A stretch of 64,000 bases of DNA. Source: Methanosarcina vacuolata Z-761 (GTDB lineage: Archaea; Halobacteriota; Methanosarcinia; Methanosarcinales; Methanosarcinaceae). The stretch covers positions 3,410,001 through 3,474,000 of the forward strand of contig NZ_CP009520.1 in assembly GCF_000969905.1 (NCBI RefSeq), given 5' to 3'. Positions 2,333 to 60,014 of this stretch are shown here, in pieces. The translations under genes and the position numbers were made by a program. The notes under the pieces are model-generated. The model searched no databases. It had not been told where the DNA came from and worked only from the letters and a program-made list of their open reading frames with translations. Position 1 is the stretch's first letter; each line of letters starts with the position of its first letter.

Positions 2333-2694
2333 ATTTTACTTCATCTCGAGTTAAATGTAGATGAGTTAAATGTAGATAATAGTGAGTAGGGTCGCGTCAA
2401 TTTTCAAGGATTCACTGATTCCAAATAATTGTAATTGATTTTATACGACATTTTGTGGTTGACTCGACGGTAGAGCATATAACAGTTCGATCTTTGTATA
2501 AAAGTTATAAAAGCTCAAAATATAAAAAGCTCAATATAGATAAAATTTGAAGTATATAAAATGCTAAATATTTAGGTTTTCAGGTTGTTCGAAAAGCTTA
2601 AAATACAGAGGTTTTCAGGTATCAAGCGTGTCTAACCATTTACCTTCAATAACTGTTTAATGGAATAAGAGGCTAATATTAGTGGGGGATAACT
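2333..2694. other. non-coding stretch
   Basis: No gene is seen. It holds short local duplications (GAGTTAAATGTAGAT twice at about 2347-2377; ATAAAAGCTCAAAATATAAAAAGCTCAATATA at 2508-2540) and the leader of the next gene, with a GTGGGGG purine block at 2682-2688 that can serve as ribosome binding site. Confidence 0.45.
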
Positions 2695-2985
2695 ATGAGT
2701 TTCACGCTTAATATCGAAACTAATTTCTCGCCTCAGGAAGTGACTGAGGCTATTCGCTCGGCTCTTGAACATGAAAAGCACGTTGCCAGGTATAAGATCA
2801 AAAGTTATTCTGCAATCTGCAGGGATTTCGAAACAAAATTCGGGTTCAGTTCTGCTGAACTCCAGGCAAAGCCCGAAACTCCAAATAAAAATAAAGACAG
2901 CAGTTTTTTCGACTGGTATGCAGCAAAAAGAGGGCTGGACCACTGGAACAAAAGACTTGAAATCCTTTCAGGTATTTCTTTTTGA
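2695..2985 (+). CDS. hypothetical protein, paralogue of the gene at 681-971
   Basis: A 96-residue protein of unknown function. It is the second member of the local paralogous pair, with the same length as the other copy. It shares SALEHEKH, YKI..Y..IC..FE and the C-terminal WYAAKRGLDHW block, while the central linker (about residues 60-72, Lys/Asn/Pro-rich) diverges. A GTGGGGGATAACT leader places a purine-rich ribosome binding site directly upstream of the ATG. It follows the winged-helix regulator after 362 bases, so a shared promoter is not required. No signal peptide, membrane segment or metal motif is evident. Confidence 0.7.
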   Translation: MSFTLNIETNFSPQEVTEAIRSALEHEKHVARYKIKSYSAICRDFETKFGFSSAELQAKPETPNKNKDSSFFDWYAAKRGLDHWNKRLEILSGISF

Positions 2986-3352
2986 ACCGAGACTTTAAGT
3001 TTCCAGTCATTACATTGAAGCTGTATCGGCATAGTTTTGCCTTTTGAAGCTTTATTTGAACATTTCTGTTTTTCTGTATAATTTACTTATTCCCTTTTGC
3101 GCCTGGATTTCAAACTCCTGTTTTCGTTTCCCTATTTAATCCAGAATTGGCAAATTATTTATGTATGTGTATAAGTATTAACAGGGTTAATCATTCTCCC
3201 TAAGGAGTAATCATGCTTAATAACTAATTCGCCATCATATCCCATTGATGATATGAAAATTGATTCTCTTCTCTCTGGCGATTTTGGGTATTAAGTCTTT
3301 GGTTGTAAAATATGCTGAGGTGTTAAATCTGGTCAAAAATATCCTAAAAAGT
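2986..3352. other. fae leader region with two mini-ORFs
   Basis: An archaeal TATA-like box (AATTATTTATGTA, about 3150-3163) precedes a strong Shine-Dalgarno AAGGAG (3202-3207) and an ATG at 3213 that opens only MLNN before a stop. A second short frame at 3253 reads 13 codons. The open frame from 3260 continues into fae, but its first 31 residues do not look like Fae. Confidence 0.45.
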
Positions 3353-3835
3353 ATGGTAGGAGAAGCTCTCATAGGCTCCGGTCCGGAAGTTGCACACATA
3401 GACCTGGTTATCGGGCCTAGAGGAGGCCCAGTTGAAGCAGCGTTTATGAATTCGCTTGCAATGCCCAAACAGGGTCATACCCCACTTCTTGCAGTCCTGG
3501 AACCAAATCTCCAGCCCAAACCTGTAACCTTGCTCGTAAATAAGGTAACGATAAAAAACGTATCGCAAGCTGCTCTTATGTTCGGACCGGCTCAGGCTGC
3601 AGTCGCAAAGGCAGTTATGGATTCTGTAGCTGATGGAGTGCTTCCTGAAGAACAGGCGGATGACACTTTTATTATCGTTTCCGTATTTATTGAATGGGAT
3701 GCGAAAGATAAGGACAAAGTTTACGAATTTAATTATGAAGCAACAAAGCTTGCAATAGCAAGAGCTATGGAAGGCAGTCCTACTGTCGAAGAAGCGCTTG
3801 CTAAAAAAGATTCAGCAAAACACCCGTTTGCCTGA
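3353..3835 (+). CDS. fae: formaldehyde-activating enzyme (Fae)
   Basis: Fae condenses formaldehyde with tetrahydromethanopterin to methylene-H4MPT, linking formaldehyde to the methanogenic C1 pathway. The 160-residue core begins MVGEALIG, as in the family, and carries the conserved histidine in [10 protein letters not shown] (corresponding to the catalytic His of characterised Fae), the GHTPLLAV and KVT.KN blocks, the [12 protein letters not shown] helix and the C-terminal [15 protein letters not shown]. The reading frame is open back to 3260, with possible GTG (3320) and ATG (3260) starts, giving a hydrophobic 31-residue extension not seen in the family. I prefer 3353 by homology, although no good Shine-Dalgarno precedes it. 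Methanosarcina also has Fae-Hps fusions; this one is a stand-alone Fae. Confidence 0.88.
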
Positions 3836-5001
3836 ATTATAATTTAGTGCAATTTAAACTTCAAAAGCAATTTGTTTCAGGTTGAAACTTGACTTCTTAA
3901 ACTGCAGACAGTGGGATCTCAGATTTTTTATTTACTCTAAGAGAGACTCTGCCTGCAGTCTTTTCTAAATAATCCTGGCATATTTAGGATAGAGATGCCT
4001 GCATATATCTCTCCATCCCTTTGTATTATTTTCCTGTGCAGTACAGAACCATTTTCCTGTGCATTACAGAACCAGAACTCAGTATAGACTGCAATATTTG
4101 TGGATTGCAGTATCTCTGAAAGCTGGTCCTTCCAGAGTAAATAGTGCCTGACATATACAGCACGTTATACTACAGCACGTTATACTACCCCACTTCAACG
4201 ACAGGCTCTAATGCTATATCTCTAGCCTCAATTCCCAATATATGTCTCTCAGAAGCTAAAGAAGCCTGTAAGGAATAGAAACCCAATCTGATTTGAAAAC
4301 AGAATCAGAAAACCATATTATTAGCTCAGGATTCTAAAGTGATAACACATTCAACTGACCAAATGCCGAATCTACTAATTATTTTTTAGTTAAAAGAAGC
4401 CCGAAACTAAAAGTTTATTGTAAAGTTTGTGTTAATAGTTAATCGGAAAATATATACGCAGTAGGCTGATACCTTGCTTTTTCCGGTAGTAGGTAACCTC
4501 AGTCCTTATTATTCCCTTTGGTGACAATTGTATTTCTCAAAGAATATCTTTCTCCCAAAATTATTTCCTGTTTTTTGTTTTTAATTTCTGGATTTTATCT
4601 CTCTTCCTCTTAAGTACAAAGCTGCCAGATGATCTGACATCAAGATTATATGACAGCAGGCTGGCTTTTTCGTTCAGGGTTTTGCAGTACTATATGGTTA
4701 TACGCACAATGTTGTATTGCCATAATATTTCTCAAATTTTATGAGTATAGTATCTCTGTGTTTGGAGTCTTTCAGGAGTACATTTAAGAGTGCTTAAAGG
4801 AGCGCGTCCAGGGACACGTTCAGAGACAGTTTCTTGTTTTTTTCTATTAGTTCCTTGCTGAGAAAGTTCTCGCTAGAACTAAAATTTCTGAGTTATGATT
4901 ATTTTTGCAGGTCTTATTCTTTCCAGGCTTTTACCGGCCTTTATGAGGACCGAAACGGATATTGGAGACTTAATGACTGCGTAAAAAATAAAAGCGCGGG
5001 C
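3836..5001. other. long non-coding stretch
   Basis: More than 1.1 kb without a supportable gene on either strand. Local direct duplications are visible: TTTTCCTGTGCAGTACAGAACC-like twice (about 4029-4073) and CAGCACGTTATACTAC-like twice (4160-4190). I see no RNA gene or mobile-element end in it. Confidence 0.5.
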
Positions 5002-5016
5002 AGATAAATATTTATA
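5002..5016 (+). promoter_or_regulatory. TATA-type promoter of the first DUF1699 gene
   Basis: AGATAAATATTTATA is matched by AGATAAACATTTATA at 45721-45735 in front of the second DUF1699 paralogue. Both are followed by ...AAGTAGTTT and, about 45 bases later, the same TAGTGGGGGAA ribosome-binding block. Conservation of spacing between the two copies marks this as a real promoter. Confidence 0.6.
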
Positions 5017-5080
5017 ATAAGTATAAGTAGTTTATATTGAGGTAAAAAAATAAGAACTTTATAGTGGGGGAATTACATAC

Positions 5081-5488
5081 ATGAAGATTAGAGTAGTTAG
5101 TTCCAGAGAGGAAATATTCACTCTCAATCCTAATGAGCGTGTTGTTCATCTGGCCTTCAGACCTTCGAACAAAGACATTTTTGCACTCGTTGAAACCTGT
5201 CCGAAAATTGAGGTAATTCAGTTGCCCAAATCTTATAGGCGCACGGTTTCGAAATCTATAGAAATGTTCCTTGAGATGCAGAGGATCCAGCTTATCGAAG
5301 GTGATGTCTGGGGTCACAGGAAGGATATTAACGAATACTACAGTATTCCTTCTTCAGTCATTGACAAAATAAGGGAGCTAAAATCGGAGGGAACACCTGC
5401 TGAAAGAATCGAAGAAAAGGTCGCAAGGGAAAGCAAACTAAATCCTGAGATGGTTGCATATATCCTGACCAAGGAAGCTTCTGCCTGA
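5081..5488 (+). CDS. DUF1699 family protein
   Basis: This 135-residue protein belongs to DUF1699, a family of unknown function known from Methanosarcina. It is about 80% identical by eye to the protein at 45795-46202. The N-terminal two thirds (MKIRVVSSREEIF, AFRPSNKD, CPKIEVIQLPKSY, IQLIEGDVWGHRKDINEYY) are nearly invariant, and most differences lie in the charged C-terminal helix (about residues 95-120). The GHRKDINEYY block and preceding helix look like a nucleic-acid-binding surface, but that is inference only. A GTGGGGG Shine-Dalgarno-like block and promoter are shared with the paralogue. No membrane segment. Confidence 0.85.
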   Translation: MKIRVVSSREEIFTLNPNERVVHLAFRPSNKDIFALVETCPKIEVIQLPKSYRRTVSKSIEMFLEMQRIQLIEGDVWGHRKDINEYYSIPSSVIDKIRELKSEGTPAERIEEKVARESKLNPEMVAYILTKEASA

Positions 5489-5931
5489 ATAAGTATCAGC
5501 CCAGAAATTTTCACTAGATTCTTGAGTGCAGATAAAGCCATATGAATAGTCTCAAATCTTTGAGAATATCCTTTATCATCCAGATTCCAGCTTAAACCTT
5601 CAATTTTTAAGGAGCCTTAATAGGTTCCCTGATCCTGGACAGTAGCGTGAGCTTTCCGGGGCAGGGAGACTCCATCTGTTTTTTTAATTATTGTGCAATT
5701 GTTGTGCATTTTTGATGATCCGTTTGTATTTGATTTGAATTATATATATGGAGATCATATGTTTATATATGGGATAAAACGCCATCCACAAATAAATAAT
5801 CGTAAAGTTATAACTCGAAAGAAAAAAGCCAGTGATAAAAGGCTTACAGAAGAAAATTTAAAAAATCGTTGTTTGGAAAGTTAAGAAATAATAGAAATTG
5901 GATAAACCGGAATAAAATAAAGCCTGAAATT
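5489..5931. other. non-coding stretch between convergent genes
   Basis: No gene is supported. A short GC stem (GGAGCC...GGTTCC, 5611-5628) lies downstream of the DUF1699 gene and may mark its 3' end. A 63-codon frame at 5693 has unconvincing composition and no recognisable start signal. Confidence 0.4.
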
Positions 5932-7131
5932 TCAGGCTTCGTAGTATCCAATTTCTTCTTTTGTAAGATAACATGCAGGGTCATCTGCCCATACATTTCC
6001 ATATACAGCTTCGGCACGTACCCTGAAATTCCCATTGCAAACATCGAGCCATTTGCACCTGGCACAACGGTCTCCGTGAACTTTTATAAGGGGTTTTCGG
6101 TTTTTAAGCCCTGCCATGATTTCATCGCTCAGGTCAGTCCAGATTTCACTGAATGGGCGTTCCCGCACATTTCCAAAGGAATAGTGCCTCCAGAACTGGT
6201 CGGCATGTACCGCCCCGTCCCAGGATACGCAGCCTATACCTATCCCTGAAGAATTTCCCTGGTTCATGGAAAGAAGTTCAAATACCTTGGCAGCCCTTTC
6301 AGGATTTTCTTTGAGGAGCTTCATGTACAGGTAGGGGCCGTCACAATGGTTATCCACTGTCAGGACTTCGGCAGGAAAACCTTTTTCGTGAAGTTTTCTT
6401 GTCCTCTCGAGTATCAGGTCTACAGCCTGCCTGGATTCCTCAAGGGAAAGGTCTTCATTTACCATTTTTGAGCCCCGGCCTGCATAAACCAGATGATAGA
6501 AACATATTCTTGGAATTTTTTCTTTTTCAAGCAGGTCAAAGATTGCAGGAATATCCCTTACATTTTGCTTGTTGATGGTAAAACGCAGGCCAACCTTTAT
6601 GCCTTCTTCCTGGCAATTGTGAAGCCCTCTTAGAGCTGCATCGAACGCCCCTTTCATGCCCCTGAATTTGTCATTCGTTTCTCTGATCCCATCAAGAGAA
6701 ACTCCTACGTAAGAGAGACCGACATCCTTTAGCTTTTTTGCCAGATCCCGGTCTATGAGCGTCCCGTTTGTAGAAATTACAGCCCTCATCCCTTTTTCAC
6801 GCGCGTAGGCTGCAAGTTCAGGCAGGTCTTTTCTCATGGTTGGTTCCCCTCCGGAAAAAAGTATTACCGGGCTTCCGAAACTCGCAAGGTCATCGATAAG
6901 AGCTTTGCCTTCTTCAGTTGAAAGCTCATTTTCAAATTCTATGTCCTTTGCCTGGGCATAACAATGGACACATTTCAGGTTGCAGCGGCGGGTCATGTTC
7001 CAGACTACAACTGGCTTTTTATCCTTTGAAAACTGCAGCAAGTGAGAGGGAAGCTTTTTTGATTCCCTTCCATAGCGGAGGGCATCTGAGGGTTCCACGG
7101 TTCCACAGTAAAGTTTTGAAATGCCTATCAT
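5932..7131 (-). CDS. ahbC: radical SAM AhbC, didecarboxysiroheme deacetylase of alternative haem pathway
   Basis: AhbC removes the acetate side chains of 12,18-didecarboxysiroheme to give iron-coproporphyrin III in the siroheme-dependent haem pathway. The 399-residue protein starts with the family signature MIGISKLYCGTVEPSDALRY, followed by the radical-SAM cluster CNLKCVHC (Cys50, Cys54, Cys57), the SAM-binding FSGGEPTMR and STNG motifs, and a C-terminal auxiliary-cluster region with CARCKWLDVC and a final Cys. The N-terminal signature favours AhbC over the sister enzyme AhbD (haem synthase). cobA and hemD lie upstream on the same strand, consistent with tetrapyrrole synthesis, but a 1.8 kb decayed region separates them, so this gene probably has its own promoter. 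Confidence 0.85.
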   Translation of the reverse strand: MIGISKLYCGTVEPSDALRYGRESKKLPSHLLQFSKDKKPVVVWNMTRRCNLKCVHCYAQAKDIEFENELSTEEGKALIDDLASFGSPVILFSGGEPTMRKDLPELAAYAREKGMRAVISTNGTLIDRDLAKKLKDVGLSYVGVSLDGIRETNDKFRGMKGAFDAALRGLHNCQEEGIKVGLRFTINKQNVRDIPAIFDLLEKEKIPRICFYHLVYAGRGSKMVNEDLSLEESRQAVDLILERTRKLHEKGFPAEVLTVDNHCDGPYLYMKLLKENPERAAKVFELLSMNQGNSSGIGIGCVSWDGAVHADQFWRHYSFGNVRERPFSEIWTDLSDEIMAGLKNRKPLIKVHGDRCARCKWLDVCNGNFRVRAEAVYGNVWADDPACYLTKEEIGYYEA

Positions 7132-7384: not shown

Positions 7385-8005
7385 TGACATAAAACCTCTT
7401 CGAATTTGATATATATTTGATATATCTGACTGTTTCTTCGACCCTATAAGTATCATACCCTGCTTTCCATCTATTTCAAAGTGGTAAATCCATCCGGGAG
7501 GCCTGCATTGTCAGGTTATCAGGAGTTGTTACCATCCTGCTGTCGCCAAAATATTCAATCCGCTTTCCTTTTCGCCGGTTAATTTGATCGGTCATGGTTT
7601 CATCTCATGAACGGTATACTGTTGTTGAAAAGGCATAATTAAAAACGTCGGTATCGTGGTCGATCATCGCAAAGACTTGAGTTTTCTTTCGGGATAGAAG
7701 GGCCGGAAGTCCCGACGAATGGAGTTTCTCATCTCGCAATAATATCCATGATTTTGATTGCTATCGCTTCAACCAGCCGGCTTGCGAATGACAGCGCAGT
7801 TTGACAAGATCTTCGTTACGGAATGACAGTGCAGTTTGACAAGGTTTTCGTTACGAGATGCCATCGCAGATAACGATTGATGCAGGAATGGCTTTGAAAA
7901 TCTCTTTTTTCCAGGTATTAGCAACGATTCTGGAAAAGCAGAGTTTTTTTCCTCAGAGTAGTCAAAGGCGTGTGTGTTCCGCAGGAAGGTTTGAAAAAAG
8001 AGCAT
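7385..8005 (-). pseudogene. decayed coding region between hemD and ahbC, identity unknown
   Basis: On the minus strand several stretches read like protein but in different frames: RKGKRIEYFGDSRM (about 7540-7590), then PGWIYHFEIDGKQGMILIG (about 7435-7490), and further upstream SRKKTQVFAMIDHDTDVFNY (about 7640-7700) and SRLVEAIAIKIMDIIAR (about 7737-7787). Frames change between blocks, and a 30-40 bp segment is duplicated in tandem at about 7788-7856. This looks like an inactivated gene with small indels. I do not recognise the family. Confidence 0.35.
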
Positions 8006-8054
8006 ATTTTGAAAGAGGGTATATAAAAGAAAGTCGAGGTTTAAAAAAGAGGTC

Positions 8055-8178
8055 GGACTTACGCAGTTGAACTAAAAAATCAACAGCATCAGACCGGTAA
8101 CTGTTTAAAACATGAATTACATGAATTTAATCCACATTCTTTGACGTAATTGATTTTGTTCTTCAAGTGCGTAAGTCC
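8055..8178. mobile_element. 124-bp MITE with 16-bp terminal inverted repeats
   Basis: The ends are GGACTTACGCAGTTGA (8055-8070) and the inverted GGACTTACGCACTTGA (8163-8178), with one mismatch. The interior has no coding potential. A related solitary end (CAACTGCGTAAGTC) occurs at about 60189-60202. A target duplication is not obvious. Confidence 0.6.
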
Positions 8179-8981
8179 TGAGATAAAGAGCTCAAAAACA
8201 CTTATTTTGAAGTGTTAAAAACCACCCTGTCCCGGGACAGTTTTACGTTTCAGGCATCTGAAATCAGTTTCTTTTGGAGAAACATATTCCATTATCCTCA
8301 TGCAAAATCCATAGGATCTGCTGTACATTTCGCATTCTCCACATCTTACTGGCATCTGTTCCGTTAGCTTTTCCTCCCGTATATTACATTTTAATTATAT
8401 TTTGTTCTTAAAGTGAATAATTTTTTAAAGTTATATACTTTACCCATAATTTTAGATTTGTTTTAATTCATCTATGACTATTTTTCATCCCTTTCATAAC
8501 GGATTTCAGAATTACTTAAAGGAAAGATGCGGGGTCGATTGCAACTTAAAGTACACGGATTGAGAACATTATTATGAAGGAATTCCTTTAGACTGTTTTT
8601 TAATTTAGACTGTCTCTTAAATATAATATTAAATATAATATTTAATATGAGAAGTAAAGAATTCACATTCGGTGTGCTTAATGATGACAAACGTGGAGAT
8701 ATACCCGTCACCTGACCTGCAAAAAAGGGACTACTGGATTATGAGAAGCAAATTTGACATGTATTAAAGGTTTATTTGAACCATTCCAGAAATTCGTACA
8801 TTGGTACGACAAAAGACCTCGGGGGCTTTTAAGTATTGTTATTTCGAACCGGTTTTATGAGAAAAGCATGGTTTTATGAGAAGAGCCCGGTTTTATGAAC
8901 TCATTCCCATATAACGTTGTTCTCAAAACGATTTGAGTCATACTTTTAGAGCAGTTCTTCAGTTACTTTTAAGCTGACTTT
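8179..8981. other. non-coding stretch with transposase remnant and 17-bp repeats
   Basis: No intact gene. Besides the transposase-like remnant at about 8769-8835, three imperfect tandem units of about 18 bp (GGTTTTATGAGAAAAGC-like) lie at 8850-8898. Confidence 0.45.
8769..8835 (+). pseudogene. short remnant resembling a DDE transposase C-terminus
   Basis: One frame reads GLFEPFQKFVHWYDKRPRGLL, resembling the F..F..WYN..RPH..L motif near the C-terminus of integrase-core transposases. Only about 22 codons survive, without a start or inverted repeats, so this is a weak remnant call. Confidence 0.3.
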
Positions 8982-9773
8982 TCATAGCTCTTTTTTCATA
9001 GCCTTTATCAGGGCTTCGAAGGTAAACTCTTCAGGGATCACGTCCGCATTGACACCATATTTTTTCAGGGTATTTCCTGTAGGCGTTCCTATAGCTCCTA
9101 CCACGGCCCTGCTGAGAGATTCTTTTATGGTTTCCTCTGCTCCCAGCTCTTTAGCATGCTTCATAAAGCCTTTAACCATCATCGAACTTGTAAAAGCAAA
9201 AGCATCCACTTCCCCTGCGAGCGTGCGCTCTATCAACTCTCTCTGGATCGCTCCTTCAGGAATACTGAGAGTGTATACGTGGGTCTCATAAACCGTAGCT
9301 CCGCACTTTTCAAGCCCTTCTATTAAGACTTTAGCCCCAAAAGAGCTCCTGGCAAGGTCCACCGTCTTTCCTGCGACCTCGGGACAGAGAGCTTCTACAA
9401 TTCCTTTGGAACTGTAATCTCCCGGCAAAAAAGAGTTGTCAATTCCTATTTTTATGAGTTCTTTTTCCGTATTAGGCCCGATGGCAATTACCTTGATTTT
9501 TTTAAGCGCTGTAATGAAATCTTTCTTTTCAGTTTCAGAAAGCTTGTCTAGAGTAAAACTTATTCCGTTTGCACTGGTAAAGACTACATAATCCGAAGAT
9601 CCCTCAAGGACTCTTTGGATAAAGGGCTCAAACCCTTCATCTTTTATGCCTTCAAGCTGGATCATGGAGGCATATAAGGGCTCAAAACCGTAATCTTGCG
9701 CAAGCGCCTCTGATTTTTCCCTGTAGCTTTCCGGCCTCATAATTGCGAGAACAGGTCTTTTTTCTTCTGCCAT
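8982..9773 (-). CDS. hemD: uroporphyrinogen-III synthase
   Basis: HemD closes the linear hydroxymethylbilane into uroporphyrinogen III, inverting ring D. The 263-residue length is normal. Family features include an N-terminal LAIMRPE, VVFTSANGISF, a central AIGPNTEKEL, SSKGIVEAL, DLARSSFGAKVL and a C-terminal domain with FAFTSSMMVKGF and AIGTPTGNTLKKYGV. It lies 40 bases downstream of cobA on the same strand, so the two probably form an operon supplying siroheme, cobalamin, F430 and haem precursors. hemD sequences are poorly conserved, but the SSx(V/M) and AIG.PT.. motifs and the cobA neighbour make the call secure. Confidence 0.9.
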   Translation of the reverse strand: MAEEKRPVLAIMRPESYREKSEALAQDYGFEPLYASMIQLEGIKDEGFEPFIQRVLEGSSDYVVFTSANGISFTLDKLSETEKKDFITALKKIKVIAIGPNTEKELIKIGIDNSFLPGDYSSKGIVEALCPEVAGKTVDLARSSFGAKVLIEGLEKCGATVYETHVYTLSIPEGAIQRELIERTLAGEVDAFAFTSSMMVKGFMKHAKELGAEETIKESLSRAVVGAIGTPTGNTLKKYGVNADVIPEEFTFEALIKAMKKEL

Positions 9774-9813
9774 ATTCCTCTCTCCTGTTATATCCCGTTA
9801 TTTCCGCGCCGGG

Positions 9814-10581
9814 TTAAAAGTCAGCTCCTGTCCGCTGTTCCCCGAGAATATCGTGCAGGCGTACAACATCCCCTACAACCGTAATAGCTGGAGCCTTTAC
9901 TTTCCTTTCTTCTGCTAGGCTGGCGATGTTTGCAAGGGTCCCTATAGTTACTCTCTGGTCGGCCCTGGTTCCTCTCTCAATGACTGCAACAGGAGTATCC
10001 GGGGCTTTGCCGTGCTTCATGAGTTCTTCTGCATTCCGGCCGAGCATCTTCACACCCATAAGGATTACAATTGTTCCGCCGAATTTTGCCAGGGTTTCCC
10101 AGTCAAGTCCGCTTTCTTCTTTTGTAGGATCTTCATGCCCTGTGATGAAAGTAACCATAGAGGTGCTTTCCCTGTGAGTTACAGGAATTCCGGCATAAGC
10201 AGGCACTGCTATCGCAGAAGTAATCCCAGGCACAACTTCAAACTCAATTCCTTCGGCTACAAGCACTTCGGCTTCTTCTCCGCCTCTTCCGAAGACATAG
10301 GGATCTCCTCCTTTAAGCCTGACTACCATCTTTCCTTCTTTTGCTTTCTGCACAAGCACTTCATTAATCTCAGCCTGGGTCATGGTATGGTTGCCGGCGT
10401 ATTTCCCAACATCAATTTTTTCCGCACTTGTCGGCATTGAGTCAAGAATAGCTTTTCCAGGAAGCTGGTCAAAAACAATTACTTCAGCACTGTCAATTAG
10501 CCGGCGGGCTTTCAGGGTAAGGAGCTCAGGGTCGCCTGGACCAGAACCCACAAGATAGACTTTTCCGTAATTTTCTGACAT
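9814..10581 (-). CDS. cobA: uroporphyrinogen-III C-methyltransferase (SUMT)
   Basis: SUMT adds methyl groups at C2 and C7 of uroporphyrinogen III using S-adenosylmethionine, giving precorrin-2, the branch point to siroheme, haem (Ahb route), cobalamin and F430. The 255 residues show the tetrapyrrole methylase hallmarks: VYLVGSGPGDPELLTLKA near the N-terminus, VVRLKGGDPYVFGRGGEE in the middle, EVVPGITSAIAVPAYAGIP, THR, and the C-terminal AVIERGTRADQR. Length fits the stand-alone SUMT rather than the CysG fusion. First gene of a cobA-hemD unit. Its ATG is preceded by AACCGTCGTCAC without a strong Shine-Dalgarno. Confidence 0.93.
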   Translation of the reverse strand: MSENYGKVYLVGSGPGDPELLTLKARRLIDSAEVIVFDQLPGKAILDSMPTSAEKIDVGKYAGNHTMTQAEINEVLVQKAKEGKMVVRLKGGDPYVFGRGGEEAEVLVAEGIEFEVVPGITSAIAVPAYAGIPVTHRESTSMVTFITGHEDPTKEESGLDWETLAKFGGTIVILMGVKMLGRNAEELMKHGKAPDTPVAVIERGTRADQRVTIGTLANIASLAEERKVKAPAITVVGDVVRLHDILGEQRTGADF

Positions 10582-50035: not shown

Positions 50036-51166
50036 TCATGATTTATGGAATGCCACTACTTTAGTCATTTCCAATTTTGCCAGGCATATATCACCTGCAT
50101 GCAGTTTAAGAGAATCAACAAACTGTGCAGGTACCTCTGCAGTCAGAGTCTTGTTGCATCTAACAAGTGTAAGTGTAATGCGCTTTTTTGGTCCCTTATT
50201 GATTATATTATTGATACGGACAGAGTAAGTATTTTCATTTTGATTTTCAGAGCTGGAGTCAGGTAAAAGAAGAGTTATGTTCTCAGGATGAATTCCCCAG
50301 GAAACTTTATCTCCAGGTTTGAATTTCTGGGTTTTTATCCTTAAACTCAGGTCTCCACTTTTTAACACTGCACATTTTGACTCCTCATCATGTTTTTCAA
50401 CATAAGCATCATCGAAAATATTGGAGATCCCAACTAATTCTGCCACATGCAGATTTTCAGGATGATAGAATATTTCTTCCGGAGCCCCGAACTGCTGAGC
50501 TTTTCCTTCGTATAAGATAAGAATCTTGTCGGCCAGATGGAAAGCTTCTTCCAGATTGTGAGTGATAAACAAAACAGGTATTCCAATTTTGGCTTGAAGG
50601 TCTTTTATTTTTTCTGCAAGCTCGGTTCTTATTTCCAGATCAAGTGCAGAGAAGGGCTCATCCAGAAGTAAAATTTCTGGTTTGGGAGCCAGCGCTCTTG
50701 CCAGAGCAACTCTCTGCTTCTGCCCGCCTGACAGCTGGGACGGATATCGAGTCTCTAACTCCTCAATATGAAGAAGATTAAGCATTTCCAGAACCCTTTT
50801 TTCCTTTGCTTCTTTCTCCCAACCTTTGAGCCCGCATTCTATGTTTTTTCTTACACTCATATGGGGAAAAAGAGTATAGTTCTGGAAAACATAACCCAGG
50901 TTGCGTTTCTGAATAGGTAGATTTATTTTTTGATCTTTATCGAAATAAACTTTATTCTCTACGGTTATTTTTCCCTCATCAAGATCCGTAATCCCGGAAA
51001 TGCATTTAAATAACGTGGTCTTTCCCGACCCTGAAGGCCCAAAAAGCACAACAAGTTCATTTTCCATTTCAAAGCTGACGTCTAACGTAAAGGATTTCTT
51101 AACGCTTTTTTTACCACTGTGAGCAGTATCATTATACTGTTTTTTAAGGTCAACTTTAATGCCCAA
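50036..51166 (-). CDS. modC: molybdate/tungstate ABC transporter ATP-binding protein
   Basis: The 376-residue ATPase of an oxyanion importer. Walker A FGPSGSGKTTLFKCISG, Q-loop GYVFQNYTLFPHMSV, signature LSGGQKQRVALARALA, Walker B ILLLDEPFSALD and H-loop FITHNLEEA fill residues 1-240. A linker and a C-terminal TOBE-like domain (about 300-376: RINNIINKGPKKRITLTL...AEVPAQFVDSLKL) follow, as in ModC and WtpC. Sequence alone does not separate Mo from W preference; the adjacent mop and the nearby Mo-type fmd operon favour molybdate. It starts three bases after the modB stop. Confidence 0.9.
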   Translation of the reverse strand: MGIKVDLKKQYNDTAHSGKKSVKKSFTLDVSFEMENELVVLFGPSGSGKTTLFKCISGITDLDEGKITVENKVYFDKDQKINLPIQKRNLGYVFQNYTLFPHMSVRKNIECGLKGWEKEAKEKRVLEMLNLLHIEELETRYPSQLSGGQKQRVALARALAPKPEILLLDEPFSALDLEIRTELAEKIKDLQAKIGIPVLFITHNLEEAFHLADKILILYEGKAQQFGAPEEIFYHPENLHVAELVGISNIFDDAYVEKHDEESKCAVLKSGDLSLRIKTQKFKPGDKVSWGIHPENITLLLPDSSSENQNENTYSVRINNIINKGPKKRITLTLVRCNKTLTAEVPAQFVDSLKLHAGDICLAKLEMTKVVAFHKS

Positions 51167-51168
51167 AA

Positions 51169-51846
51169 TTATGCCTCTAATTTTCCTACGAATCGTCCGG
51201 TTAGAGATATAGCCAGCAGGGATATAAAAATTAGGATTAAAACCAGAGCCTGAGCAAGTTCATCATTACCTGCCTGAAAAGCGCTGTATATTGAGATAGA
51301 CATTGTGTTTGTTTTCCCCGGAATATTCCCTGCCAGCATAAGGGTTGCTCCGAATTCTCCGACAGCCCTTGCAAAACTAAGTACCAGCCCTGCCAGTATG
51401 CCCCTTTTTGCAAGAGGAAAAGTTATAAGGAGAGCAGTTTCAATCTCACTTCTTCCAAGAATGTAGGCTGCATATTCAAGCTCTTTATCTACTGCTTCAA
51501 TGGCTGCCTGAGCAGCTCTAACCATAAGAGGAAGGGAAACTGTATAAGCCGCAATGACTGCTGCCTGCCAGGTAAACATGATCCCGGTGCCAAAAAAGTC
51601 GTAAATGAGGTGGCCAAGAAGTCCGTTTCTACCTACAAGAATAACCAGAAGATATCCAATTACTGTGGGTGGGAGAACTAGAGGAAGTGTTACTAAAAGC
51701 TCTGCAAGCTCTTTTCCCCGGAAATCATGCCTCGCAAATACATAAGCTATGATTACGCCAGTGCAAAGGACTAAAACTGATGATATGGTTGCTACCCAGA
51801 GCGTAAGAGATAAAGGAAACCATACCTTGTCCAACATAATGATCAT
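51169..51846 (-). CDS. modB: molybdate/tungstate ABC transporter permease
   Basis: A 225-residue permease with five or six membrane spans starting at MIIMLDKVWFPLSLTLWVA. Motifs: LPLVLPPTVIGYLLVILVGRNGLLG, characteristic of ModB/WtpB, and the ATPase-contact loop EYAAYILGRSEIETALLITFPLAKRGILAG. The frame is open to a TTG at 51942, adding 32 residues; I prefer the ATG at 51846 because it gives the usual ModB length and N-terminus. modC overlaps in operon fashion, but the binding protein modA is not found upstream, where only 380 non-coding bases separate modB from mop. Confidence 0.88.
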   Translation of the reverse strand: MIIMLDKVWFPLSLTLWVATISSVLVLCTGVIIAYVFARHDFRGKELAELLVTLPLVLPPTVIGYLLVILVGRNGLLGHLIYDFFGTGIMFTWQAAVIAAYTVSLPLMVRAAQAAIEAVDKELEYAAYILGRSEIETALLITFPLAKRGILAGLVLSFARAVGEFGATLMLAGNIPGKTNTMSISIYSAFQAGNDELAQALVLILIFISLLAISLTGRFVGKLEA

Positions 51847-51942
51847 GTCTTTTATTTTCGGGATAATCTTATTCAAGAGATAACTAAATGCCTGGAAATG
51901 ATTCAAGTATAATATCAGGGATATCAAGATATTTGTTGCCAA

Positions 51943-52323: not shown

Positions 52324-52533
52324 TTAATCTGTACCAATCATCACATTTGAAGCCTTGATGATTGCGTATACTTCGCTTCCTTCTTTTAGCTTCAGGTTTT
52401 CAGCTGAGGCCTTTGTGATGATGGAAGTCATTTCTGCTCCGCCTGGCAATTCTATTACAATTTCAGAATTGACCATCCCCGTGACAATACTTTTAACCTT
52501 TCCTTTTAAAACATTGCGTGCACTTAATTTCAT
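52324..52533 (-). CDS. mop: molybdenum-pterin-binding protein (molbindin, Mop/TOBE)
   Basis: A 69-residue single Mop domain that binds molybdate or tungstate as a small oligomer, buffering oxyanions in the cytoplasm. Clear family motifs: MKLSARNVLKGKVKSIVTG at the N-terminus, NSEIVIELPGGAEMTSIIT and the C-terminal GSEVYAIIKASNVMIG. A GAAGGAGGAG ribosome binding site (52541-52550 on the minus strand) precedes the ATG by 7 bases. It is upstream of modBC on the same strand, with a palindrome between its promoter and start. Confidence 0.93.
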   Translation of the reverse strand: MKLSARNVLKGKVKSIVTGMVNSEIVIELPGGAEMTSIITKASAENLKLKEGSEVYAIIKASNVMIGTD

Positions 52534-53465: not shown

Positions 53466-53820
53466 ATGTTTCATCCCAAAAATGATTTTGCTTTTTTGAT
53501 TTTTTTTATTGCAGTCAAATATCGTATAAAGATGGCTCATTATTTGAGCTCAACTTTAAATTTGCTTCTTTAACATGATCATCCTGAGTACCAAAATAGA
53601 ATCAGAACAAAATAGAATCAAATAGAATCGGAATTGACTCAGTATTGAACTTTTTGCGTCACCTGATGTTGCATTGTGTATTGAACTTTCAAATGGATTT
53701 GAATCTGCGAAATCAATTCAGGATACAAAGATACAACCTGGAAAATTATAGAGATTCTTATGATACGGTTTTCTACAATTCATAGACAACACTTATTGAG
53801 AATAAGCATTGTTTAAAGAT

Positions 53821-53847
53821 AAATATATATTCTATTTATTATATAAA
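53821..53847 (+). promoter_or_regulatory. candidate promoter of fmdEFACDB
   Basis: AAATATATATTCTATTTATT followed by ATATAAA offers one or two TATA boxes, about 70-95 bases before the fmdE start. A transcript from here would have a leader of roughly 45-65 bases. Confidence 0.45.
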
Positions 53848-53917
53848 TGTACGCAATATCTTATCTGACGTTCCTGCTCAAAAATAAGAGCGTTTGAACC
53901 TGTGGGGGGTGTATGCA

Positions 53918-54526
53918 TTGCATAAAAGCTCGCAATTAGAGAAAGAAGCAATGGAAGCGATCATAAAGCAGATAAAAGACCCTGAACTGCTTTTACAGAT
54001 CGAATAGGTCGTTCCCTTTCACGGCTTCCTGACTTCCGGGGCATTAATTGACATCCAGATGCTCAATATCGCAAGACGAGAACTCGACGTCCATGATAGG
54101 GAACGCATATACGTGACCTGCAAAACGAAAAGCTGCATGCCGGATCCATTCCAGATCCTTGCCGGAGCAACCATCGGAAACAATGGGTTAAAGATCGTGA
54201 ATTTGGGGAAAATGGCTGTCACGGTAAACAAACAGGCGCCTGAAGGAGTGCACAGCATAAAAGGTGTCAGAATCATTCTCGACCCTGAAAAAACGAAATA
54301 TTATCCCAAACTCCACGCCTGGTTCCTGAACACTGAAAAGCTTCCTCATACAGAGGTTGTACCAATCCTTCTGGATGCAGGGGAAAAGGTCTATTCCTGG
54401 AAATTTATGGATGTAGAAGTTCCGGTACGCAAAAAAAAGTGAATTCAGTGCTGTGAAAGCTGTGGTGAAATGTTCATTCAACACGATAACGAACTGCTGT
54501 GCGGCGGTTGCACAGAACAATGTTGA
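53918..54526 (+). pseudogene. fmdE: fmdE with in-frame TAG and TGA (amber possibly read as pyrrolysine)
   Basis: FmdE is the first gene of Methanosarcina fmd operons: an FmdE domain followed by a zinc ribbon. Here a single frame runs from TTG (53918; GGGGGGT 8 bases upstream) as HKSSQLEKEAMEAIIKQIKD...LLLQIE, reaches TAG (54005-54007), and continues VVPFHGFLTSGALIDIQMLN with the His/Cys region intact (TCKTKSCMPDPFQIL) to TGA (54440-54442). Beyond it the same frame gives QCCESCGEMFIQHDNELLCG then GCTEQC, the zinc ribbon, ending in TGA at 54524. TAG can be decoded as pyrrolysine in this genus, which would give a protein of about 174 residues lacking the ribbon. Without suppression only the part from the ATG at 54059 might be made. 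Two stops make inactivation the simplest reading. Confidence 0.8.
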
Positions 54527-54538
54527 GAGGTAAGCAAA

Positions 54539-55579
54539 ATGCAAAAAGATATGCAATTGCCTGTCTTTGCTGAAAAAAAAGGCAAGCAGCTAATTTATTA
54601 CCCCGAAAAATGCATTGGCTGCGGGACCTGCGTACAGGCATGCCCAAAAGGTATACTGGCCATTGGGGCTGTTGGAGCTGTAGTAAGAGGGCTGTTGGAT
54701 GCGGATTTTTTGGAAATAACAGAAAGTGAAGCCTGCATTGCCTGTGGAATTTGTGCAAAAGTCTGCCCCACAGGTGCCCTTGAGTTGAAGCAGGAAGGAA
54801 AAACCCTCACTGACATGTCCTATCTTTTCAGGGCCATGAAGCCAACGGTAGTAAATGAAAGCTGTGTCCACTGCGGACTCTGTGAGGATATATGTCCCAG
54901 AGGCTGCATCGAGGTAACCCGTGGAATTTCAGGGGACGGAAATCTGAAACTCGTCGGAAAGACCAATATTGATTTGGAGTGTTGCATCCACTGTGGCTGG
55001 TGTGCAGCAGTCTGTCCGGTGAATGCTATTTCGGTAGAAAAGCCCTTTGAAGGGCGCTGGAACAGAGATGAGAATGTCTGCCAGACCTGCCATACCTGTG
55101 TGGAAACCTGTCCTGCAAATGCTATTTTCAATAAAAAAGCTAAACCTGGAGAAAGAGTAGAAAAAATAAGTCACCGCCCTGATGCCTGTATTTACTGCGG
55201 GGCCTGTGCGGTTGCCTGTCCTGTTAACGCCATTGATGTCAGAAAAACTGCAATTATCCCTAATGTGGAGAAAAAGAGCGTTCTTGAGAAAAAAGTGCTT
55301 GAAATCCCGGTTCCTAATGCTATATTACGCACCTGCCTGGAAGTGGATGAAAATGCATGTCTGGGCTGTGGAAATTGTGTGATTGTCTGCCCTGTAAATG
55401 CTCTTTATAGCTCTGAACTTGCTGCAGGATACCTGAATGACATGGACGAAAAAGCTCTCCTTGAGGTTAAGAATGGCAAAATTTCGGTCGTAAACCAGGA
55501 TGCGTGTGGAGCAGATGGAGCCTGCGCCATGATCTGTCCTGTGAATGCAATCTGGCTTGTGAAAAGAAAGGTGAAATAA
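54539..55579 (+). CDS. fmdF: polyferredoxin subunit FmdF of formylmethanofuran dehydrogenase
   Basis: FmdF delivers ferredoxin electrons to the Fmd complex. The 346 residues contain eight cysteine motif repeats of the ferredoxin type. Seven are complete (CIGCGTCVQACP, CIACGICAKVCP, CVHCGLCEDICP, CIHCGWCAAVCP, CQTCHTCVETCP, CIYCGACAVACP, CLGCGNCVIVCP). The last, CGADGACAMICP, has lost its second cysteine, so the final cluster may be missing or ligated otherwise. A GAGAGGTAAGC leader precedes the ATG, which lies 12 bases after the fmdE frame end. fmdA starts on the next base after the stop. Confidence 0.93.
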   Translation: MQKDMQLPVFAEKKGKQLIYYPEKCIGCGTCVQACPKGILAIGAVGAVVRGLLDADFLEITESEACIACGICAKVCPTGALELKQEGKTLTDMSYLFRAMKPTVVNESCVHCGLCEDICPRGCIEVTRGISGDGNLKLVGKTNIDLECCIHCGWCAAVCPVNAISVEKPFEGRWNRDENVCQTCHTCVETCPANAIFNKKAKPGERVEKISHRPDACIYCGACAVACPVNAIDVRKTAIIPNVEKKSVLEKKVLEIPVPNAILRTCLEVDENACLGCGNCVIVCPVNALYSSELAAGYLNDMDEKALLEVKNGKISVVNQDACGADGACAMICPVNAIWLVKRKVK

Positions 55580-57334
55580 ATGGCAGGAACAATTGCAATC
55601 AAGAACGGATACGTCTTTGATCCTCTCAACGAAATAAATGGAGAAACAATGGATGTTTTTATCAAAGACGGAAAAGTTGTAAGGGAGCTTTCTGCTGCCG
55701 AACTGAAAGACGCAAAGGTTATTGATGCCTCTGGTATGACGGTAATGCCCGGAGGAGTTGATTCTCACTCTCACATTGCAGGTGCAAAGGTTAACGCCGG
55801 CAGGTCGATGCGTCCAGAAGACCATTATAAATCAAATCTTCAGAAGACTTCACTTACCCATTCAGGCTCAGGTTACACTGTCCCCTCGGTCTATAAACAG
55901 GGATACGACTACGCAGCAATGGGTTATACAACTGTCTTTGAAGCTGCCATTCCTCCTCTTGAAGCACGTCACACCCATGAAGAGATGCGTGCTACTCCAC
56001 TCCTTGATATGGGAGGATATCTGGTACTCGGAAACAACTTTTTTTTGATGCGTTACCTTCGGAACGGGGACATTGAAAAAGCTGCGGCTTATGTAGCCTG
56101 GATGATGAAAACCCATAAGACCTATGGAATTAAATGCGTCAATCCTGCAGGAGTAGAAAACTGGGGCTGGGGTAAAAACATCAGCTCGCTCGATGAGGCT
56201 AATATCCATTTTGAAATTACCCCAAGAGAAACTATAAAAGGGCTTAGCGAGCTCAATGAGCGCCTGGGAATGCCAGCGCCTATCAACCTGCATGCAAACA
56301 ACCTGGGACACCCTGGATGCTATGCAATTACTAAGGATTCCCTCAAAATCCCGGATGGGGTAAAGACCAGTCAAAATATGGATGTGAACTGGGCTGAAAC
56401 AAAAATTAACCCTTTAAGGGACCGTTCCGTATATCTCGCCCATCTTATGTTCAACAGTTTTGCAGGCACCACCTGGGCAGACTGTGAATCTGGAGTAAAG
56501 GATATTGCCGACTACATTAACAACAAAGATCACGTAGTGATCGACAGTGGATGCACTCCTTTTGGGGAAGCCACAGTTATGACAGGAGATGGGCCTGCCA
56601 TTCATGACCTTTACACCCTTACAGGAAACAAATGGTCAAATACGGACGTTGAGATGGAGTGCGGTTCAGGTGTACTCCCTTTTACCTATTCCATGTCCAA
56701 TCCGGTACATAGCTTGCAGTGGGCGATGGGGCTTGAATGTCTCTTGCTAATCAATGACCCCTGGAAAACAATTATGACCACTGACAGTCCCAATGGTGGG
56801 CCGTTTACGAAATATCCTGAGGTTATGACCTGGATCATGTCCGAAGCTTTCAGGAAACAGACTTTCAGTGAATGCCATAAGTGGGCAAACGACAGGAGTG
56901 ACCTCGGAGGCATAAACCGGGAACTTTCCCTCTATGACCTTGCGATCCTGACAAGAGCAAATCCCGCTAAAACAATTGGCGTGTCCCACAGGAAAGGTTC
57001 TCTTGGATTGGGCGCTGATGGAGATGTCACAGTCTATAACATAAATCCACAGCAGCTTGACACAAATAACTATGAGGCTCTACTTCAGGCTTTCAGGAAG
57101 GCCGAATACACCGTAAAGGGTGGCGAAATTGTAGCTGTCAAGGGTGATATTGTTTCCGTACCTGAAAAGCGGACTTATTATTCTGAAGTACATGTAGAAG
57201 ACGAGCGAGAAAAGGAAATGCTGGCCGATGTGAAGGAGTGGTTCAGGTACTACACCCTGGGCTTTGCCAACTATCCAACTCCAGAAAAGTATCTGAAAAA
57301 TCCGACTCCCATACAGATTAATGTTGTGAGGTGA
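55580..57334 (+). CDS. fmdA: formylmethanofuran dehydrogenase subunit A
   Basis: FmdA hydrolyses/condenses formate with methanofuran at a binuclear zinc site of the amidohydrolase type, the second half-reaction of CO2 reduction to formyl-methanofuran. The 584-residue length is normal. Seen: the metal motif GGVDSHSHIAG near residue 60, EAAIPPLEARHTHEEM, INLHANNLGHPG, the TTDSPNGGPFTKYP block with the active Asp region, and AKTIGVSHRKGSLGLGADGDV near the C-terminus. It is in the centre of the fmdEFACDB operon, directly abutting fmdF and four bases before fmdC. Confidence 0.96.
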   Translation: MAGTIAIKNGYVFDPLNEINGETMDVFIKDGKVVRELSAAELKDAKVIDASGMTVMPGGVDSHSHIAGAKVNAGRSMRPEDHYKSNLQKTSLTHSGSGYTVPSVYKQGYDYAAMGYTTVFEAAIPPLEARHTHEEMRATPLLDMGGYLVLGNNFFLMRYLRNGDIEKAAAYVAWMMKTHKTYGIKCVNPAGVENWGWGKNISSLDEANIHFEITPRETIKGLSELNERLGMPAPINLHANNLGHPGCYAITKDSLKIPDGVKTSQNMDVNWAETKINPLRDRSVYLAHLMFNSFAGTTWADCESGVKDIADYINNKDHVVIDSGCTPFGEATVMTGDGPAIHDLYTLTGNKWSNTDVEMECGSGVLPFTYSMSNPVHSLQWAMGLECLLLINDPWKTIMTTDSPNGGPFTKYPEVMTWIMSEAFRKQTFSECHKWANDRSDLGGINRELSLYDLAILTRANPAKTIGVSHRKGSLGLGADGDVTVYNINPQQLDTNNYEALLQAFRKAEYTVKGGEIVAVKGDIVSVPEKRTYYSEVHVEDEREKEMLADVKEWFRYYTLGFANYPTPEKYLKNPTPIQINVVR

Positions 57335-57338
57335 GGTA

Positions 57339-58244
57339 ATGACAGAGGGAGTTCTTATTAATAAAAATGAAAGTGATAGTAAACTCGAAGCAGTTATAAA
57401 GCCTGCATCATCTGCCGGTAAAAGTGTCGAAGAAATGGGAGAAGTACTGCTTATTCCTAAAAAAGCTATTGACATTAAACTGGAAGCCGATGTTATAACT
57501 CCTGATGCCTTTGCAGGCAAAAGTGCCGAAGAAATTGGAAACCTGGCAATCTGGCAGGGGCCAAAGACCTATCCTCTCTCCGAATTTTTTGAAGTGATAG
57601 GCAATGCAGGTAGCTCTGCAGCTGAGACTCTGATCCGCATAAAAGGTGACGTAATGAGAGTAAAAAGGATAGGTGAAGGCATGAGTGCAGGAAAAATCGA
57701 AATTGAAGGTTCTGCAGGCATGCATGTAGGCACCGGGATGAAAGGGGGAGAGATCGTCGTTTACGGAGACGCAGATTCCTGGGCAGGTATGGAAATGACA
57801 GGCGGACTCCTGAACATAAAAGGCAACGCAGGAGACCATGTGGGCTGCGCTTACAGAGGTAAATGGCATGGAATGAAAGGTGGACGCATTGTTATTGAAG
57901 GTTCGGCGCGCCACCAGCTCGGAGGCGGCATGGACGGAGGCGAAATCCTGGTAGAAGGCAATGTTGAAAGCTTCTGCGGAATCCGTCAGAACGGCGGGCT
58001 AATCTTCGTAAAAGGCAACGCTCTTCGTGGAGTCGGTGCTGAAATGGCAGGAGGCATCATAGTAATTGGGGGCAAAATCGAGCGCTTCTCCCCGGGTTTC
58101 GAATTTGTATCCATGGAAAACAGCGTCACATCCGGAGAGGTTGAACTAATAGGCGAATTCAAGAAATTCACAGGGGACTATGCGATCAGCAAGCGGGCAA
58201 AAGGAGCGCTTTACGTGGTTGCAGACGCAAACCCGGAGCTTTGA
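57339..58244 (+). CDS. fmdC: formylmethanofuran dehydrogenase subunit C, with N-terminal duplication
   Basis: FmdC is a structural subunit with a GltB-like parallel beta helix. The 301-residue protein contains the repeated G-x-x-G-x-x-x-G coils (GSAGMHVGTGMKGGEIVVYG, GNAGDHVGCAYRGKWHGMKG, GSARHQLGGGMDGGEILVEG, GNALRGVGAEMAGGIIVIGG) at about 125-250. The first 70 residues hold an internal duplication not general in the family: KLEAVIKPASSAGKSVEEMG (residue 15 on) and KLEADVITPDAFAGKSAEEIG (about 48 on). fmdD follows after 10 bases. Confidence 0.94.
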   Translation: MTEGVLINKNESDSKLEAVIKPASSAGKSVEEMGEVLLIPKKAIDIKLEADVITPDAFAGKSAEEIGNLAIWQGPKTYPLSEFFEVIGNAGSSAAETLIRIKGDVMRVKRIGEGMSAGKIEIEGSAGMHVGTGMKGGEIVVYGDADSWAGMEMTGGLLNIKGNAGDHVGCAYRGKWHGMKGGRIVIEGSARHQLGGGMDGGEILVEGNVESFCGIRQNGGLIFVKGNALRGVGAEMAGGIIVIGGKIERFSPGFEFVSMENSVTSGEVELIGEFKKFTGDYAISKRAKGALYVVADANPEL

Positions 58245-58254
58245 GGTGAGAAGC

Positions 58255-58650
58255 ATGGAAGTATTACTCCTTACTGGAAGTACAATTGAAGAAGGCAGGC
58301 TTGCAAAAGGAGGGGACAAGTTTACGGATGAGTATACTCTGGAGTGCGCATCGTGCTGGATTTCTCCTGTGGATTTTGAATCGCTTTGCTCTCCTTCTAA
58401 AGTAAAAGTAACAAGCGAGAATGGAAAATATTCGATTGTAGTTTATACAAAATGTACAGATGCAGTCCAGCCAGGGCAGGTGTTTATGCCAAGGGCTATC
58501 TGGTCGAATGTTGTTATCGATCCCGATACCCTTTCTACGGGTTCCCCACTTTATAAGGGTGCCCCGGTAACGATTGAACCCACTGAAGAAGAGGTCCTTA
58601 GCGCCGAAGAGATAGTATTGAAAGTTTATATCGGGGGGCGGGGAGTATGA
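58255..58650 (+). CDS. fmdD: formylmethanofuran dehydrogenase subunit D
   Basis: FmdD is the molybdopterin-dinucleotide-binding domain that completes the active-site subunit FmdB. The 131 residues start MEVLLLTGSTIEEGRLAKGG, with GAGGTGAGAAGC as ribosome binding site. The conserved C-terminal part (GQVFMPRAIWSNVVIDPDTL...GSPLYKGAPVTIEP) holds the cofactor contacts. The frame is open further upstream to 58180 within fmdC, but that part is out of family. Its stop overlaps the fmdB ATG (ATGA), so the two are translationally coupled. Confidence 0.94.
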   Translation: MEVLLLTGSTIEEGRLAKGGDKFTDEYTLECASCWISPVDFESLCSPSKVKVTSENGKYSIVVYTKCTDAVQPGQVFMPRAIWSNVVIDPDTLSTGSPLYKGAPVTIEPTEEEVLSAEEIVLKVYIGGRGV

Positions 58651-60014
58651 TTTACAAAAACATAATATGTCCGGTCTGCGGGGCAGCCTGTGACGATATC
58701 CAGGTTGAACTCGGAGACGGAAAGATTGAAGCTAAAAACGCATGTAAGATGGGAAATGCCAAATTTCAGGAAATTGTAAGTTCCCACAGGATTATGCAGC
58801 CTCTTATAAAAGTTGAGGGAAAACTGGCCCCTGCCGCCTGGGATGAAGCTCTTGAGAAAACTGTCGATATCCTTGTTTCGGCAAAGCGTCCCCTGTTTTT
58901 CATGGGCAGTGAAACCTCCTGTGAAGCACATGAAATCGGGCTCAAGATAGGAGAATACCTTGGTGCGATTGTTGATTCTAATTCTACTGTCTGCCACGGG
59001 CCAACAGCTATGGGAATTCAGGAAGCCGGAAAAGTCGGTGCAACAGAAGGACAGAAGAAAAACAGAGGAGACCTCATAGTCTACTGGGGAACCAATCCTC
59101 TTGAATCCATGCCGAGACAGATGTCGAGGTACGCGGTTTTCCCGAGAGGTTACTGGACAAAACGCGGACGTTTCGACAGGACAGTTATTACTGTAGACCC
59201 GAGAAAAACCCCAACCACTGAAGCTTCTGATCTGCATGTTCAGCTCAAACCTAACTCGGATTTTGAACTGATAAGTGCACTTCTGACCCTGCTCCACGGA
59301 AAAACTCCCCATCCCTCAGTAGAAGAGATTACTGGAGTTCCCATCCCTGTTATGGAAGAGATGCTCGATATGATGAAGAACTGTACCTTCGGAGCCATCT
59401 CAGTGGGCCTCGGGCTTGCTTCTTCAATGGGGAAGTACAGAAACTCCGAGATTGCCATGAATTTCGTAAAGGAACTGAACAACTATGCCAAGTTCACCCT
59501 TGGAGCTCTCCGTGGCCACTGCAACGTGGCAGGCTTTAATCAGGTGGCTGCCTACATGTACGGCTACCCCTTCGGGATTGACTTCATGCGCGGGCACCCG
59601 CGTTATAACCCCGGAGAATTCACAACAGTAGACGTGCTTCGAGAAAAAGATGTTGACGCAGCTTTCGTTATGTGTGCTGACCTTGTGTCTCATATCCCTG
59701 CAGATTGTGCGGCTTACCTTGCCAAAATTCCAATGGTCTGTCTGGACATTGCTCCCTGCCCGACAGTATCTGCTTCGGATGTCGTACTTCCTGGAGTCAT
59801 TGATGCTATGGAATGTGAAGGAACCTTCTACAGGCTTGACGATGTGCCAGTATATTTTGAACCTTTCACGAGTTCACCTTTCGAGTTCACGAAGAGCAAT
59901 GAAGACACTTTAAAACAGCTCTTTGAGAAGATTAGAAAAAAAAGAGGTCAGGATATTCCTTTTCCTTCTCTAAATAAGGAACACGAAAACCTAACACCTG
60001 AAAATTTGCCTTGA
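58647..60014 (+). CDS. fmdB: formylmethanofuran dehydrogenase subunit B (Mo/W catalytic)
   Basis: FmdB reduces CO2 to formate at a molybdenum or tungsten bis-pterin site. The 455-residue protein has an N-terminal [4Fe-4S] ligand set (Cys8, Cys11, Cys15, Cys33), the metal-ligand Cys in NSTVCHGPTAMG (residue 116), and DMSOR-family motifs (VYWGTNPLESMPRQMSRY, TVDPRKTPT, GLASSMGKYRN, RGHCNVAGFNQV). Cys rather than selenocysteine occupies the metal-ligand position. The Mo (fmd) assignment over W (fwd) rests on the operon order E-F-A-C-D-B, which follows the Mo isoenzyme, and on the adjoining mod/mop genes. Confidence 0.95.
   Translation: MIYKNIICPVCGAACDDIQVELGDGKIEAKNACKMGNAKFQEIVSSHRIMQPLIKVEGKLAPAAWDEALEKTVDILVSAKRPLFFMGSETSCEAHEIGLKIGEYLGAIVDSNSTVCHGPTAMGIQEAGKVGATEGQKKNRGDLIVYWGTNPLESMPRQMSRYAVFPRGYWTKRGRFDRTVITVDPRKTPTTEASDLHVQLKPNSDFELISALLTLLHGKTPHPSVEEITGVPIPVMEEMLDMMKNCTFGAISVGLGLASSMGKYRNSEIAMNFVKELNNYAKFTLGALRGHCNVAGFNQVAAYMYGYPFGIDFMRGHPRYNPGEFTTVDVLREKDVDAAFVMCADLVSHIPADCAAYLAKIPMVCLDIAPCPTVSASDVVLPGVIDAMECEGTFYRLDDVPVYFEPFTSSPFEFTKSNEDTLKQLFEKIRKKRGQDIPFPSLNKEHENLTPENLP

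Follow-up and report, generated by a model that had tools for sequence, protein, structure and literature searches.

Results

An Interrupted fmdE Gene at the Head of a Second fmd Operon

The window (the whole stretch of 64,000 nucleotides analysed here) comes from the genome of Methanosarcina vacuolata Z-761, whose assembly (G000) comprises 4.56 Mb in two contigs. It contains a second, molybdate-transporter-linked fmd operon, fmd2, which is headed by fmdE2 (Table 1). The divergent mop, modB-like and modC-like genes are found beside fmd2 in the window and, where the contig extends far enough, in the genomes designated G003, G004, G022, G027 and G029. All five of the genes downstream of fmdE2 are free of stops, in agreement with an earlier reading of the sequence alone (the sequence-only reading), which had judged the other subunits to be functional and had proposed that fmdE2 might be dying in an otherwise intact operon. 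As described below, that appears to be so.

The sequence-only reading had also recognized all of FmdE in a single frame, and translation bears this out. The frame consists of 202 codons and a final stop, and runs from a TTG start through the TAG, the FmdE domain, the TGA and a four-cysteine stretch to a final TGA (54524-54526). With both stops translated as residues, the product matches the Pfam FmdE family (PF02663, E=7.5e-29), and it aligns without gaps to intact Methanosarcina fmdE genes over 200 codons. Under the standard code, however, fmdE2 is not an open reading frame, since codon 30 is TAG and codon 175 is TGA. Following the suggestion that both sites be compared among Methanosarcina genomes, we found that codon 30 is a lysine codon (AAA or AAG) in most other fmdE genes and AGA in two genomes, and that codon 175 is CGA in all of the closest open fmdE2 relatives. 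The usual terminator has changed from TAA to CAA at codon 201, and the window frame consequently runs two codons further, to TGA. The TGA 5' of the ribbon, the lost terminator and the TAG are disabling changes of the kind seen in pseudogenes, and residues that are invariant among the Methanosarcina FmdE copies have not been kept (G45D and E69K).

Table 1. Features of the fmd2 locus (positions in the window)
Feature	Position	Strand	Evidence
modC-like ABC ATPase; conserved fmd2 neighbour	50036..51166	-	
modB-like ABC permease; conserved fmd2 neighbour	51169..51942	-	
mop, encoding a small protein with a TOBE domain (molybdate-binding type); conserved divergent neighbour of fmd2	52324..52533	-	
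AT-rich TATA-like stretch 5' of fmdE2, conserved in six genomes; probable operon promoter	53820..53848	+	
G-rich stretch resembling a ribosome-binding site, conserved 5' of the TTG start	53902..53909	+	alignment
fmdE2, second-copy fmdE with two in-frame stops	53918..54526	+	translation, Pfam match, alignment to intact copies
TAG, codon 30, replacing Lys; common to G003 fmdE2	54005..54007	+	codon alignment
TGA, codon 175, replacing CGA (Arg); private to the window genome; removes the zinc ribbon	54440..54442	+	codon alignment
C-terminal four-cysteine zinc ribbon region, 3' of the TGA	54443..54520	+	translation, structure alignment
CAA, codon 201, terminator TAA in almost all other intact copies; stop loss common to G003 fmdE2	54518..54520	+	codon alignment
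fmdF2 (polyferredoxin), open	54539..55579	+	ORF, domain search
fmdA2 (amidohydrolase subunit), open	55580..57334	+	ORF, domain search
fmdC2, open	57339..58244	+	ORF, domain search
fmdD2 (molybdopterin dinucleotide binding), open	58255..58650	+	domain search
fmdB2 (molybdopterin catalytic subunit), open; paralogue-specific tree	58647..60014	+	domain search, tree

The same genome contains an intact fmdE1 (G000:C2:4250617-4251219) that is 85% identical to fmdE2 and heads a complete fmdEFACDB operon; an fmdE1 of this kind is present in most of the Methanosarcina genomes searched. The intact paralogue that would be expected to accompany a pseudogene is therefore present in the sequence, and it is presumably functional. 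Because fmdE1 is uninterrupted and belongs to a second full operon, the fmdE2 of the window is a redundant copy. It does not follow from the state of fmdE2, as had been suggested, that the cell may be able to do without FmdE or its ribbon, since the fmdE1 that heads the other operon bears an intact ribbon.

The Two Stops Appear to Differ in Age

The fmdE2 gene is open in G004, G022, G027 and G029 (M. spelaei), where codon 30 reads AAG and codon 175 reads CGA. The copy in G003, which is probably M. barkeri MS, has the TAG at codon 30 and the change from TAA to CAA as in the window, yet it has CGA at codon 175. It also contains about five indels and further stops, and the FACDB genes of its fmd2 operon are open. 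In a tree, the window and G003 copies of fmdE2 cluster with 99% support, and their neutral-scale branch lengths (0.32 and 0.41, respectively) are similar to those of fmdE1 in these two genomes (0.26 and 0.27). The most plausible reading is that the TAG and the loss of the terminator were inherited from a common ancestor of the window species and G003, in which case the TAG, being common to both, predates the species split. The codon 175 TGA, in contrast, is best read as a later change that is private to the window genome.

Constraint on the Frame and Decoding of the TAG

We fitted to 200 codons a purpose-written codon model with a separate omega for each branch, for which p-values are asymptotic. 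Omega was 0.14 for the background, 0.11 for the stem before the split, 0.26 for the window branch (likelihood-profile interval of approximately 95%, 0.1-0.65) and 0.50 for the G003 branch. On the window branch, omega = 1 was rejected (2dlnL 7.8, p about 0.005) and equality with the background was not (2dlnL 1.8); on the G003 branch, omega = 1 was not rejected and equality with the background was. A count after ancestral reconstruction yielded 13 nonsynonymous and 11 synonymous codons on the window branch, where neutral evolution would produce 17.4 nonsynonymous codons on average (P=0.045). For the segment from TAG to TGA alone, 2dlnL was only 4.1, and codons 31-47 give no power. The changes on the window branch include S26L, G45D, G61R, E69K and D128Y, and Gly45 and Glu69 are invariant among the copies compared, with Gly and Glu also present at these positions in PDB 3d00. 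Meanwhile, no nonsynonymous change was inferred in the zinc ribbon on this branch, and the window copy has no indel in 200 codons. We considered gene conversion from fmdE1 as a source of the low omega and rejected it: the fmdE2 state is retained at 32 sites, and just four match the genome's own fmdE1 alone.

We read these values as a time average, with constraint over part of the window branch and recent relaxation. They lend modest support to a frame that was still useful while it bore the TAG, and they do not prove decoding.

The sequence-only reading had held that the TAG could be decoded in this host, and the genome does encode both PylS, which scored above the curated cut-off, and tRNA-Pyl with the anticodon CTA. 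Along with these decoding genes, homologous sequence on either side of an in-frame UAG is characteristic of pyrrolysine proteins and is found here. The UAG is not, however, conserved in orthologues that stay open: the decayed G003 copy alone has TAG, and the four intact fmdE2 genes have AAG. In M. acetivorans, an amber codon introduced into a reporter gave 20-30% UAG read-through (PMC2933860), and a cis element is not strictly required for the decoding of UAG as pyrrolysine (PMC8211752). Pyrrolysine may in the past have been inserted in part at the TAG of fmdE2, where it would take the place of Lys; that UAG in the fmdE2 mRNA was actually decoded is what we infer. Decoding of the TGA as selenocysteine was rejected: relatives have Arg (CGA) at this codon, and the host lies outside the Methanococcales and Methanopyrales, the only archaeal orders from which selenocysteine was known (PMC2933860).

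Loss of fmdE from Second-Copy Operons

The loss of fmdE from second-copy operons of Methanosarcina appears to recur, and a comparison of the loci suggests that E tends to go early and that B stays longest. In M. acetivorans (G001), only the last ~10 codons of fmdE2 are left before fmdF2. Indeed, the operon of that species is described as fmdF2A2C2D2B2, with no E in the list, and its fmd2 transcripts amount to <5% of those of fmd1 (PMC2838876). Unlike at the fmd2 operon of the window, mod-mop genes were not detected in the fmd2 region of M. acetivorans that we examined. The fmd2 operon of G005 (G005:C2:3895001-3912000, 7910-10442) is in mid-erosion: fmdB is open and its product is 94% identical to FmdB2 of the window, fmdA, fmdC and fmdD are eroded, and fmdE and fmdF were not found beside fmdB.

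A lone fmdB3, a gene listed for Methanosarcina (PMC2838876), stands beside another mod-mop cluster both in the window's own genome (C2:3496043) and in M. acetivorans (L106 5314-7241). Both loci contain scars of the fmdE tail and the fmdF start, and the locus in the window's own genome (L105 5432-7341 = G000:C2:3495432-3497341) also has a scar of the fmdD end. These loci look like remnants of full fmdEFACDB operons.

M. spelaei is an exception to the order of loss in that its E2 is open and its F2 is frameshifted, but on a short contig, and the frameshift could be due to misassembly. In G018 (92% complete), one fmdFACDB set is open but has a wrecked fmdE (C30:1-12000, 925-6702), and a second operon (C80) has decayed through E, F and A. 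We found no intact close fmdE in this 92% complete assembly, only a 23% paralogue being left; if the assembly is complete there, FmdE may really be dispensable or have been replaced in that organism. In G012 (99% complete), we found no close fmdE or fmdF and an FmdB match of only 39%, and it seems to be without a Mo-type fmd operon of this kind. G030 has an isolated, frameshifted second fmdE with no adjoining fmd operon (G030:C1:948488-949059; L059 8488-9059).

In G003, A, C and D are near identical between the two operons and F clusters with the paralogue from the same genome, whereas E and B keep paralogue-specific trees. The near-identical region occupies the middle of the operon (L061 10161-14263 and L062 4983-9085). 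This pattern is a sign of gene conversion between the operon copies, which spoiled the use of fmdF, fmdA, fmdC and fmdD as branch controls. Because of it, only E and B carry the history of the paralogues.

Discussion

In our view, fmdE2 is very probably a redundant copy that is being lost, in which the TAG came first and was tolerated and the TGA came later, with FmdE being supplied by fmdE1. According to this proposal, codon 30 would have changed from Lys to TAG, and the terminator from TAA to CAA, in the common ancestor of the window species and G003. The TAG would have been tolerated, probably through partial decoding of UAG as pyrrolysine in Methanosarcina together with the cover provided by the intact fmdE1 of the second, complete fmdEFACDB operon. 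The G003 gene would then have collapsed with indels, and the window copy would have retained its frame and then acquired several changes at conserved sites and the private change from CGA to TGA, which removes the zinc ribbon. The genes fmdF2 through fmdB2 remain open. Both the supply of FmdE1 in trans and the present lack of fmdE2 function are what we infer.

Certain observations argue against free drift of fmdE2 since the TAG, namely an omega of 0.26 with neutrality rejected, the lack of indels and a ribbon without nonsynonymous change. These signals fit a gene that was useful for part of the time since the TAG. Nor is fmdE2 useless everywhere, as four copies in other species are intact.

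An alternative that we regard as unlikely, but worth weighing, is that fmdE2 long worked as a pyrrolysine-containing gene through a neutral change from Lys to Pyl (Thg1 being a precedent), that the loss of its ribbon is recent, and that a ribbon-less Pyl-FmdE2 may persist. The first half of this alternative is compatible with our preferred explanation too. It draws strength from a TAG that is older than the species split on a branch whose omega is still indistinguishable from the background, from the absence of indels, from the identity of the replaced residue (Lys being the parent of its derivative Pyl), from the decoding genes in the genome and from the existence of ribbon-less FmdE relatives, such as PDB 2glz, whose 153 residues align to the domain only. 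On the other hand, the simple count reaches only p about 0.045 against neutrality, the statistic between TAG and TGA is small and has no power in codons 31-47, G45D and E69K strike invariant positions, and similar numbers would result if translation began within the gene at Met48 (54059) or if constraint was early and relaxation late. A functional ribbon-less Pyl-FmdE today, as entertained by the sequence-only reading, is not supported, given the changes at codons 45 and 69. It is conceivable, if doubtful, that a redundant fmdE gained an in-frame UAG in an ancestral Methanosarcina, crossed a speciation as a selected Pyl protein and has only now begun to disappear through an ordinary nonsense change; if true, pyrrolysine decoding acts as a buffer, so that a gene's first nonsense mutation does almost no harm.

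Much less probable is that ribosomes initiate anew at the internal ATG (54059) and produce an FmdE fragment between the stops. An ATG-started frame of 127 residues is present, but Met48 is conserved in all copies, and hence the ATG is no evidence for a start; moreover, no ribosome-binding-like sequence lies upstream of it, and the product would be without the conserved PFHG segment. We give still less credence to a sequencing or assembly error at the stops, which the sequence-only reading had named as grounds for refutation. The TGA is seen in the window genome only and might be such an error, but it is accompanied by other changes at conserved sites, and the presence of the TAG (like that of the stop loss) in a second assembly makes an error at the TAG unlikely. 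It is just as improbable that the TAG arose twice in two decaying copies: the G003 copy is decaying and has gained many changes, but a given A-to-T change at one site on its branch is expected ~2-3% of the time (an estimate from branch length and kappa), and the change from TAA to CAA is also common to the two copies.

To our knowledge, FmdE has no settled function, and no paper in the collection searched links fmdB, Methanosarcina and pseudogene. The early loss of E and the long retention of B suggest that FmdE acts in trans and that second-copy loci are retained for their FmdB isoform. A cell probably requires only a single source of FmdE, which can act in trans, and by a further step of reasoning the loci are likely to be kept for a distinct FmdB isoform. 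A trans-acting FmdE and FmdB-kept loci would provide a testable hint as to the role of FmdE. In itself, fmdE2 says nothing on whether FmdE is dispensable. The analysis replaces two tempting readings, a dispensable FmdE and a new Pyl protein, with an order of events: a first stop that is old, common to two species and possibly softened by pyrrolysine decoding, and a second that is new and truncating.

Among known structures, PDB 3d00 and 2glz contain the same PF02663 domain as the window FmdE, and 3d00 aligns through the C-terminal ribbon. It differs in having Lys at the position of the TAG and Gly and Glu at codons 45 and 69, whereas the window gene has its stops, Asp and Lys. A parallel to the TAG is found in thg1 of M. 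acetivorans, a Pyl-decoding Methanosarcina, in which an in-frame UAG was gained in a gene whose product does not need Pyl for activity (PMC2933860). The thg1 UAG is translatable as Pyl, whereas decoding in fmdE2 is only predicted, and fmdE2 has the later TGA. As for the operon, fmdF2A2C2D2B2 of M. acetivorans is likewise a second Mo-type operon that has retained five structural genes and is missing fmdE (PMC2838876), but there fmdE2 has been deleted to a ~10-codon scar, whereas the window gene retains its full length and is interrupted by point nonsense changes. Finally, the mod-mop-flanked fmdB3 loci, with their fmdE and fmdF scars, represent a further advanced reduction, with an FmdB that is separate from FmdB2 in the tree.
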